Source of the DNA: Halorubrum sp. PV6
GTDB taxonomy: Archaea; Halobacteriota; Halobacteria; Halobacteriales; Haloferacaceae
Assembly (NCBI RefSeq): GCF_003990725.2
Contig: NZ_CP030064.1
Coordinates: forward strand, 2,046,001 to 2,110,000
Direction: 5' to 3'
Length of the DNA stretch: 64,000 nucleotides
Part shown: positions 48,925 through 51,309 of the stretch, one piece after another
Layout: each line of letters starts with the position of its first letter
Numbering within the stretch: position 1 is the stretch's first letter
Notes under the pieces: model-generated
What the model was told of the DNA's origin: nothing
Databases searched by the model: none
What the model saw: only the letters and a program-made list of their open reading frames with translations
Program-made: the position numbers and the translations under genes

Positions 48925-49089
48925 CTACGCCGGCAGCGTGTCGATACCGTCGATCTCGACGTAGCCGTACCCGCACTCGGGGCAGCGCCACTTCGTCTTC
49001 TCGCCGAGGTGTAGCGTCATCGCACCGGTCCGGTAAAACGACTGGGTCTCTCCACACGAGGGACAGTCTACCTCCTTTTCGAGCGCCAT
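48925..49089 (-). CDS. Small zinc-ribbon protein (DUF7838-like)
   Basis: The 54-residue protein starts at the ATG at 49089, with a TTCAAAACC element about 27 bases upstream. Two pairs, CPSCGETQSFYRTG and WRCPECGYGYVEIDG, make one zinc ribbon with TFIIS-like spacing. It resembles a small haloarchaeal family that I recall as DUF7838. Nucleic-acid binding is likely; the exact role is unknown. Confidence 0.75.
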   Translation of the reverse strand: MALEKEVDCPSCGETQSFYRTGAMTLHLGEKTKWRCPECGYGYVEIDGIDTLPA

Positions 49090-49506
49090 ACTCGCGGATC
49101 CGTTCGGCGCGGTTTTGAAGATACTGATCCGCCGGTTGCACTCGGCTGGTCGCGGGTAAATCGCGCCTGGGAGATCGTCGGTGAACACCGCCTCGCCGGC
49201 TGTCCCTCTGCGTCCCGCCCGCACAGCACCACTGGAAGACGTTCCTGCTCGCGCACTCCGTTCGCTGTGCGGGCTGTGGCTTCCATGCTCCCGCTCGTTC
49301 CACTCACGGGACCGCAACCGCGCCGCACGCCTCCCCAGCCTCGTCGGTCGTCCTCCGCGCCGCTCCGGACGACCGACTCCCTCGCGCGTGCTGACTCGCG
49401 GCCGCCGAGAGCGGCCGCTCGCAGGCACGCGCCAGCGCGGGTCTCTTTATAAATTGTTGTCGCCGTCCTCTCGCTCGTTATAAATAGCTCTCGCCGCGTC
49501 TCGTCC
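49090..49506. other. Long gene-free GC-rich stretch with stem-loops
   Basis: No convincing coding frame is present although several frames are open through high GC. It contains a perfect 11-base stem (GCCCGCACAGC at 49217-49227, GCTGTGCGGGC at 49264-49274), a GCGGCCGC-bounded hairpin near 49398-49418, and two TATA-like elements (49446-49453 and 49478-49485). In my memory, segments like 49300-49400 recur as non-coding stretches in other haloarchaeal genomes. A dispersed repeat or a structured RNA are the two readings. Confidence 0.45.
49446..49485. promoter_or_regulatory. Two closely spaced TATA-like elements
   Basis: TTTATAAA (49446-49453, self-complementary) and TTATAAAT (49478-49485) lie 32 bases apart downstream of arcS. 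They could start transcription leftward through the stem-loop region, or rightward antisense to arcS. Confidence 0.4.
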
Positions 49507-51309
49507 CTACGTCTCGTCGACGTGCCGAACCTCGCTGGCGACGCCCCGCGTCGACGAGACCATTTCGGGACCGGACATCTCGGCGCGCCCGACCGCGAAC
49601 GCCTTCGGCCCCTCGATGACGACCTCGTCGCCCACGCGGATGTCGTCGTCCGCGTCGACGACGCCGGGCGCCAAGACGGAGCCGTGGGGGACGAACGGGT
49701 CGATTTCGACGCGCTTCGTCGGCGCGTCGCTCTCGACCCACCGGCGCGCCCCGTCGATGGTGAAAGAGAGCGTGCCGTACTGCGGGACCATCGTCGCGAG
49801 CTGTTCGCCCGGCTCGCCCTCGCGCCCGGCGTCGGGGTCGTCGCCCCACACCTGCAGTTTGGGGTACCGGCCGGTGGTCCGGATGTCGGCCTCGCCGGGT
49901 CCGCCGAACAGGTCGTCGCCGGCGCCGTCCCCGAGCAGGTAGTCGGCGAGCGCTCGGACCGTGTTGTGTTCGCGCTCCCGCTTGCTGTAGGCCGGCTCGC
50001 CCTGCAGGGCGGCGTTTAACTCCCCGAGCGACTCGTCGCTCGTCGGGTGGCCGACGCAGGTGTACTCGAAGGGTACGTCGATCGCGGGGTTGGCTTCGAC
50101 CCGCTCGCAGATCTCGCGGTAGCCGTCCTCGGGGACGTGCGCGATCACTCGCGAGTAGTCGTTGCGCTCCAGATATCGGCGGAGAACCTCGCTGACGAAG
50201 CCGATCTCGTCTTCGCTCCAGTCGCCGGTGACGACGGCGTCGTAGTGTTGTGCGGGGTAGGTCGTCTCCAGCTCCTGCGGGACCACGCCGATCGGCGAGG
50301 TCATCGAGACCGTGTGCCCGCGCCACTGGATCGCGTCGTGGAACTGCCCGTGGCTCTGCGAGTCGCTGTACGGTTTGGTGGCCGAACACGGGACCAACAC
50401 GAGCGGCTGGTCGGTGAACCGGTTGCGGTACCGGCTCGTCACCCGGTCGGCGAATCGGCGAATTTCGACGCGGTCGAGCGTCTCGCTCGTCGCCGCCGTC
50501 ACCTCGGCGTCGCGCATGAGCGGCGTCCGCGCTTCGAGGTACCCCCACTGGTCGTCGAACTCGCGGAACGCGGCCGTGAGCCACTGCTCGTGGCGGGTCT
50601 GTCCCTCGATGTAGTCGCGCAGGCGCCCGGCGCGGATTCGCTCGCGGACCCGCCGCAACTCGGCGCGGAGCGCGTTGACGTTGTGGTCGGCACAGTCCTC
50701 CCGCGTGAACTCGTCGCGGGGTTTCGCGCAGGCGGGACAGGCGCAGGGGAGCTCTTCGAGGTCCTCCAAGAAGTGTTCGGCGTCGGCGGTGCAGTACATC
50801 CCCTGGGTGCCCTTCGTGCGCGCCAGCGTCGCGTCGACGAGGTCGACGCCGGCGTACGCGAGCAGCGCGACGTTCCGGGGGGTGGCGACGCCCGAGAGGA
50901 CGAGCGCGGTGTCGGCCGGGAGCGCGTCCTTCGCGGTCACGATTGCCTCCTTGAACGCCTCGCCGTGGCCGACGAAGCCGGACGCGTCCGCGAGAACGTA
51001 GGCGTCGGCGCCCACGTCGCGGGGGGTCCCGCTGTCGACGACGGCCGCGGACGGGAACTCGACGGCGGGGTGGTCGACGGCGAACGACTCGCGGACCTCG
51101 TCGCGGGTGCCCGCGGGGAACGCGCGGTGCGGGAGGACGGTGAGCGCCTCTTCGTCGCCGTCGGGGACCGTGCGCTCGGCCGCCCAGAGGCTGCCCGCGT
51201 CCGCGAGGAACGGGTCCGCGAGCGCCGGCGTCGTCACGGGGTCGGAGAGGCGAAGCTCCCCGAGCCGGGCGGCGCCGTCGCGCTCGTGGACTTCGAAGTA
51301 CTCGGTCAT
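49507..51309 (-). CDS. arcS: Archaeosine synthase subunit alpha ArcS
   Basis: The 600-residue TgtA2-type protein begins with a TGT-like half (1-250) whose zinc site reads ELPCACPACAKPRDEF. The ArcS-specific core has VLVPCSATKPYSDSQSHGQFHDAI (about 312-335), with the Lys that attacks preQ0 in tRNA. A C-terminal PUA domain (about 525-595) carries IRVGDEVVIEGPKAFAVGRAEMSGPEM. It converts preQ0 at tRNA position 15 to archaeosine or its lysine adduct. The partner TGT gene lies 560 bases upstream on the same strand, with a divergent small gene between. Confidence 0.94.
   Translation of the reverse strand: MTEYFEVHERDGAARLGELRLSDPVTTPALADPFLADAGSLWAAERTVPDGDEEALTVLPHRAFPAGTRDEVRESFAVDHPAVEFPSAAVVDSGTPRDVGADAYVLADASGFVGHGEAFKEAIVTAKDALPADTALVLSGVATPRNVALLAYAGVDLVDATLARTKGTQGMYCTADAEHFLEDLEELPCACPACAKPRDEFTREDCADHNVNALRAELRRVRERIRAGRLRDYIEGQTRHEQWLTAAFREFDDQWGYLEARTPLMRDAEVTAATSETLDRVEIRRFADRVTSRYRNRFTDQPLVLVPCSATKPYSDSQSHGQFHDAIQWRGHTVSMTSPIGVVPQELETTYPAQHYDAVVTGDWSEDEIGFVSEVLRRYLERNDYSRVIAHVPEDGYREICERVEANPAIDVPFEYTCVGHPTSDESLGELNAALQGEPAYSKREREHNTVRALADYLLGDGAGDDLFGGPGEADIRTTGRYPKLQVWGDDPDAGREGEPGEQLATMVPQYGTLSFTIDGARRWVESDAPTKRVEIDPFVPHGSVLAPGVVDADDDIRVGDEVVIEGPKAFAVGRAEMSGPEMVSSTRGVASEVRHVDET

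Follow-up and report, generated by a model that had tools for sequence, protein, structure and literature searches.

In Halorubrum sp. PV6 the genes arcS and a short zinc-ribbon gene are separated by a gap of 417 bases (49090-49506) within the window, by which we mean the whole stretch of 64,000 nucleotides that was analysed. The features of this gap are listed in Table 1. No credible gene had been seen here by the initial annotation, and a codon-usage gene caller likewise called none in the gap; the caller also misses the short zinc-ribbon gene and is thus blind to very small genes. Spurious open reading frames cross the gap at the site of an element (49173-49454) which, read on the minus strand, is a truncated member of a family of structured repeats dispersed in the genome. 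Helices P1, P2 and P3 are kept in this copy. The P4 hairpin is missing, its pairs being gapped or broken in the covariance model (CM) alignment; just its 5′ edge is left, together with the tail motif GGTGTTCACC.

Table 1. Features of the arcS/zinc-ribbon gap and its two flanking genes (positions in the window).
Feature	Position	Strand	Basis
arcS, upstream gene (context)	49507-51309	minus	
Outer, second TATA-like box TTATAAATA	49478-49486		sequence
TATA-like box TTTATAAAT, on the 5′ side, adjoins the element	49446-49454		sequence
P1 stem enclosing P2; arms 49425-49432 and 49384-49391	49384-49432	minus	inverted repeat; family P1 pairs
P2 hairpin; GCGGCCGC arms 49398-49405/49411-49418, tandem G-A mismatches on the flanks	49396-49420	minus	
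P3 hairpin; perfect 11-bp stem 49343-49353/49367-49377	49343-49377	minus	equivalent hairpins across the family
Conserved block GAGGCTGGGGAGG after P3	49330-49342	minus	
Linker and optional extra hairpin module; holds 11-bp stem 49217-49227/49264-49274	49210-49329	minus	
P4 5′-side remnant GGGACGCAGAGGGACAGCC	49196-49221	minus	comparison with full copies L002-L012
3′ tail motif GGTGTTCACCGACGATC	49173-49189	minus	same motif after P4 in full copies
Zinc-ribbon gene, 54 aa, downstream on the folded strand (context)	48925-49089	minus	

Both hairpins that had been described from the sequence alone are present. However, the perfect 11-base stem with a 36-base loop sits inside the optional module of the linker, the family's own helices being P1, P2, P3 and P4; the second hairpin is P2. 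Overlooked were the other perfect stem, which is that of P3, the longer arms of P1 and the fact that minus is the structured strand. The paired TATA-like elements also exist, as a 23-nt direct repeat of 83% identity with a spacing of 31 bases, their starts being 31 bases apart and not 32 as had been claimed. Some other copies of the family also carry a second TATA-like box. Extra linker modules similar to the one in the window occur in L052 and L053, whose copies occupy the orthologous site, and also in L272 and L415. The folding of 49190-49445 by itself was only modestly better than that of dinucleotide shuffles, on either strand (z = -2.9 for the plus strand and -2.5 for the minus strand), so the case rests on the relatives of this copy. 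A scan of the window copy for promoters and terminators of bacterial type, a scope that leaves aside archaeal promoters, returned nothing.

A BLAST search with 49110-49506 as the query found 18 places on the main contig of the own genome, as the suggestion of a dispersed repeat family had anticipated, and a covariance model search likewise gave 18 matches. Extension of these BLAST places yielded a longer consensus, against which the window copy proves to be damaged. The covariance model R1 matched it at 49438-49222 on the minus strand (83.8 bits, E = 3.7e-20), compared to 160-221 bits for the ten full copies of the same genome, and this was the only match below E 0.06 in the window. Full copies are about 250 nt long (233-262 nt). 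In the 28 that were read in detail, again on the minus strand, P1 encloses P2, and P3 follows, then a G-rich linker and the long P4 hairpin. The optional linker module is absent from these copies. The scaffold consists of P1, GAGGGA, GAGGCTGGGGAGG and GGGACTCAAAGGGGCAGCC...GGCTGGGGCTTTGG, into which P2, P3 and the inner part of P4 are set as interchangeable hairpin modules. The core of GAGGCTGGGGAGG is invariant or nearly so in the 28 full copies and has a mean identity of 0.98 between orthologues. Behind P4, full copies often carry tail units, each about 57 bp long. This unit, GGCTGGGGCTTTGG...TATTTATAA, stands in tandem up to about five times in L002, L003, L008, L011, L012, L026, L038 and L145; its middle is near-identical within a locus and different between loci, which points to local amplification.

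The consensus fold is strongly backed by covariation. Alignment A1 comprises 28 full copies in 284 columns, drawn from 33 copies after leaving out the duplicates L017 and L018 as well as L021, L033 and L035. Standard pairs fill 95.3% of the cells of its fold and double changes occur at 29 of 53 pairs; the covariation score was reached by none of 500 shuffles, and partner-slid controls gave at most 6 pairs. The P3 pairs were put into this fold by hand and show 63.9% paired cells, which is probably an understatement as P3 is poorly aligned. A class-wide alignment of P4 (A4), made without a model from 24 of 29 P4 domains that had been chosen by sequence pattern in nine genera outside Halorubrum, shows double changes at 24 of 33 pairs; an earlier pattern had given only 8 domains.

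Moreover, the pairs reveal which strand folds. G-U cells outnumber A-C cells in both alignments (47 to 11 in A1, 29 to 11 in A4), and the GA/GA tandem mismatches beside P2 are present in all 28 full copies, in invariant columns. Together these indicate that one defined strand folds, which in the window is the minus strand. With RNA as well as DNA parameters, the structured strand also outfolds the opposite one in all 60 copies sampled. Among the P2 loops, 60 of 218 are GNA-type triloops and 3 of 218 are GNRA tetraloops. GNA-type loops are, from work on mini-hairpins, a hint of single-stranded DNA, and the loop tally is suggestive of such a form here.

The element was widespread among the haloarchaea sampled. 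A full-copy query from the own genome matched all 52 genomes of the genus, and R1, at E<=0.001, hit 156 of the 194 haloarchaeal genomes in the sample, from 57 of 65 genera, which confirms the dispersed family suggested in the initial annotation well outside the host genome. Sampling of the whole phylum gave a match in 12 of 15 haloarchaea and in none of 85 genomes that belong to other classes. Among the matches listed for an exact 20-base signature (at least 120), all named records were from Halorubrum save one, the uncultured archaeon A07HR67. Only 3 of 72,556 plasmid records contained a match and none was found in the phage records searched. The complete genome G022 (3.02 Mb) holds at least 150 copies, all 150 scored candidates lying at E<=1e-25, so that at about 250 nt each the element takes up at least some 1.2% of this Halorubrum chromosome. 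Another genome, G172, has 98 matches. Among 89 listed copies of the at least 150 in G022, the median spacing was 21 kb and no replication-strand bias was seen, with 45 strand runs compared to 45 expected. No pair exceeded 0.90 identity among 60 G022 copies, 56 of which could be parsed into modules, which argues against a recent burst. In several other genera P4 is often found alone, frequently as inverted pairs about 100-300 bp apart; such pairs were observed at L248, L249, L258, L259, L263, L266 and L268.

Copies are confined to the spaces between genes. Of 129 CM matches in Halorubrum, 106 were used for counts of genomic setting, 23 that were cut, weak or overlapping being dropped (L090 and L180-L198 lay outside the CM search), and none of the 106 overlaps a called gene. 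For the 89 copies with both neighbours called, convergent gaps were favoured, with 46 gaps convergent, 29 tandem and 14 divergent; all 545 gaps in the same loci comprise 114 convergent, 317 tandem and 114 divergent ones, a baseline that is not independent since the loci were chosen for holding an element. In tandem gaps 13 copies lie sense and 16 antisense to the neighbouring genes. This absence of a strand preference does not favour a simple role at mRNA 3′ ends and, being neutral as to orientation, argues against a dedicated attenuator. It also bears on the earlier proposal of a structured RNA expressed in the direction of the zinc-ribbon gene. That proposal gains partial support, since the covariation is strong and the gene does lie ahead of the folded strand, but no special relation to it is indicated, because the orientation of the family to its neighbour genes is not fixed. 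A total of 172 neighbour proteins from 77 loci were clustered and no cluster spanned more than three loci; those inspected by eye resemble ordinary cellular genes. A search for Y1 transposases (PF01797), which does not separate the RAYT subtype from ordinary TnpA, was positive in seven of eight genomes and found none in the copy-rich G172.

TATA-like boxes are a recurrent companion of the element. In 144 of 225 copies one is found in the 40 nt before the P1 motif, its start clustering 20-25 nt ahead of the motif, and the next four 40-nt windows outward contain one in 21, 3, 1 and 2 of the 225. A stricter parse gives 133 of 207 copies with a box before P1. Such boxes recur also in the tail behind P4. 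At the usual archaeal distance from TATA box to start, transcription from the P1-side box would begin within the 5′ arm of P1 or directly behind it, so the box is not readily taken as the promoter of the complete fold.

Individual copies were followed at three orthologous sites. Genes orthologous to arcS were found in 52 of 52 genus genomes at E<=0.001, in G040 by a weak match only; 30 of the 52 loci were taken, 14 of them with the zinc-ribbon gene, and 7 of these 14 contain the element. At the mdd and hisG sites, for which 39 of 52 genomes were searched, giving 30 loci each, it is present in 14 and 20 loci respectively. Orientation is constant at each site, and two hisG-site copies sit 26-53 nt away from the common position. 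No single copy examined seems indispensable, given that the mdd-site loci L277 and L288, where by eye the neighbour gene is retained, and other species are without it. In L277 the mdd site may either be truly empty or have suffered a deletion. In L051, L055, L056, L059 and L064 the gap between arcS and the zinc-ribbon gene is about 940-1020 bp long and contains no element and an apparent extra open reading frame. At the arcS site of L052 and L065, the P1/P2 part has undergone rearrangement or gained additional hairpins, the hairpin part being highly changeable.

Sequence likeness between copies at one site is no greater than between unrelated copies. Computed from 38 of 54 matches at the three sites, the mean likeness was 0.728 versus 0.722, a difference matched or exceeded in 539 of 2000 shuffles, so that a phylogeny of copies by sequence is uninformative at the scale of the genus. 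Copies within a genome were similarly no closer (0.729, n = 13, versus 0.722), and thus no homogenisation is seen at this scale.

A closer look at two closely related species, G010 and G022, suggests why. All 16 site pairs with aligned flanks are occupied in both genomes, and of two apparent absences one (L403/L414) is a gap filled by other genes and the other (L397/L421) has no aligned flank; neither here nor at the mdd site was a clean empty site or a target duplication found. Twelve of the 16 orthologous pairs fitted the parsing pattern; in these, identity was 0.76 in P2, 0.78 in P3 and 0.73 in P4, compared to 0.90 in the 5′ flanks and 0.98-1.00 in the anchor blocks. A stricter parse of 10 of the 16 gave 0.79, 0.83 and 0.75, respectively, versus 0.92 for the flanks. 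The hairpin that replaces another between orthologues is usually itself well paired. P3 is the module that was seen to recur at other sites. The 49-nt P3 of L343 in G010 is identical to the P3 of the non-orthologous L391 in G022, and L393, the true orthologue of L343, has a P3 that five or more other copies also carry. In some orthologous pairs, namely L322/L320 and L346/L419, hardly any swap or none is visible. The positions thus look old and the hairpin contents mobile. Ectopic gene conversion would be the simplest route of exchange, despite the shortness of the anchor blocks (about 10-25 nt), and the overall fold seems to be kept while hairpin parts pass between copies.

We compared the element to known systems. 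Rfam gave no match to the window at the gathering threshold, the best permissive matches falling far below it, and a literature search that included five consensus strings and covered sources other than subscription papers and preprints found no earlier description. The element is not described in the portions available of PMC12306157, PMC2864571, PMC1544339 and PMC7002113; the last of these, a halite metatranscriptome, does report 22 intergenic RNAs that are conserved in haloarchaea and have no known function, and copies of the element might be among them. With REP, BIME and REPIN sequences it shares a high copy number, an extragenic position, palindromes, a frequent location at gene ends and alternating orientation. 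However, the part of PMC3733652 that is available puts REPs at 20-40 bp. The element does not show the imperfect palindrome of that length, with a conserved terminal tag, that characterises the REP/RAYT system, since several helices are spread over the 233-262 nt of a full copy; unlike a REP, the element has four helices in about 250 nt, a conserved scaffold and modules that are often wholly different between orthologous copies, and no Y1 enzyme was found in one copy-rich genome (G172). The BOX elements of streptococci, built as boxA-boxB(n)-boxC, offer an analogy: like them, the element is modular, with a tandem part, intergenic, foldable as RNA and present in about a hundred copies. It differs in being restricted to haloarchaea in our samples and in its strong compensatory variation and exchangeable hairpins. 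HEARO, the IscB omega-RNA, is a structured RNA of a few hundred nucleotides with many stand-alone genomic copies, which the element would resemble in all three respects; it differs in that no recurrent family was seen among the neighbour proteins of 77 loci and no credible Rfam match was found. Lastly, haloarchaeal MITEs and the PATEs of IS200/IS605-type elements, as treated in the available part of PMC3119063, are similarly short, non-coding, repeated and partly palindromic. Here no transposase ends or target duplications were found, the structure is longer and the copies seem old and site-stable; neither the target duplication expected of a MITE, at the sites examined, nor any near-identical pair among the 60 G022 copies was found.

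The interpretation we prefer, and hold with about even confidence, is that of a REP/BOX-like structured repeat which acts at gene ends in single-stranded form and is kept by the exchange of modules from copy to copy. Its starting points are well grounded, namely the family, the structure and its strand polarity, the intergenic placement, the recurrence at orthologous sites and the module differences between orthologues. A stable hairpin at gene ends or in intergenic gaps would work as REP/BIME or BOX elements do. The active form would be single-stranded, either as RNA read through from the neighbours or started at the TATA-like boxes that flank a full copy on both sides, or as exposed DNA; a pure cruciform would fit poorly with the strand polarity. 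Recombination between copies, for which gene conversion is the mechanism we infer, would swap hairpin modules at the common anchor blocks, and selection would keep every copy foldable.

The main rivals are a mobile element and a family of discrete RNA genes. A currently mobile, non-autonomous element of MITE- or REPIN-like kind, moved by an enzyme that acts on single-strand hairpins, is a possible though doubtful alternative. Under it the small number of close comparisons would explain the apparent stability, and the swaps would be re-insertions or conversions by incoming copies. Copy number does seem strongly variable, from 18 matches in the own genome to at least 150 in G022, and the arcS, mdd and hisG sites are occupied in some genomes and vacant in others; the hairpins and strand polarity suit a single-strand DNA substrate, and its sites might bear their signature in the tandem tail units and the TATA-like boxes. 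Against this stand the lack of pairs above 0.90 identity in G022, the double occupancy of all 16 flank-aligned site pairs, the failure to find a clean empty site or target duplication in the cases examined, the neighbour proteins of 77 loci without a recurrent family and the search of G172, with its 98 matches, that found no Y1 transposase. An unlikely but wider-reaching idea is a genome-wide system of hairpin cassettes, in which sites keep an address and scaffold and a dedicated process moves the cassettes, perhaps by single-strand or RNA-templated exchange at the 10-25-nt anchors. If so, haloarchaea would keep a shared and constantly reshuffled repertoire of structured elements.

We consider it quite unlikely that the copies are a multi-copy gene family for a discrete trans-acting small RNA, started from the TATA box beside P1. 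The covariation, the G-U bias on one strand, the positioned box in 144 of 225 copies and the intergenic RNAs of PMC7002113, which in the part available might include copies, are all as expected of such a gene, but the transcript would start within or directly behind the 5′ arm of the highly conserved P1, 150 divergent copies per genome would be unusual for a trans-acting RNA and the bacterial-type terminator scan of the window copy gave nothing. Still less probable are sites for chromosome organisation, or for gyrase or architectural proteins, with cruciform DNA as the active form. Such binding roles have been proposed for bacterial BIMEs, and they would fit the spread along the chromosome without strand runs (among the 89 listed G022 copies of at least 150), the rarity on plasmids, the absence from the phage records searched and the neutral orientation; yet a cruciform would give neither a bias of G-U over A-C nor tandem G-A mismatches on one strand. 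Chance GC-rich palindromes, or likeness from composition alone, might be suspected in a GC-rich region where the single-sequence fold is just 2.5-2.9 standard deviations above shuffles, but are refuted by covariation that beats shuffles and slides, and are further opposed by the conserved primary blocks, the 85 genomes of other classes without a match and the single match below E 0.06 in 64 kb.

The repeat to which the gap beside arcS led is structured, gave no credible hit in Rfam and was not met with in the papers searched. It could serve as a natural laboratory for the study of folds that persist while their sequence is exchanged, and its copies are concrete candidates for some of the unexplained intergenic RNAs of haloarchaeal transcriptomes. 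Recognition of the element would also help genome annotation, because spurious open reading frames cross it.

Two further observations concern the hairpins themselves. In L149 (4802-5035), L175 (4991-5225) and L410 (2062-2355), the model finds P4 on the other strand as well, as an inversion of this hairpin relative to P1-P3 would produce. Moreover, smaller palindromic repeats are nested in hairpin tips, for example around GGGACCGAAGGTCCCTC, in the mdd-site loci L275, L279, L276 and L290 and in L410, as if a second short repeat family were inserting into the hairpin loops of the element.
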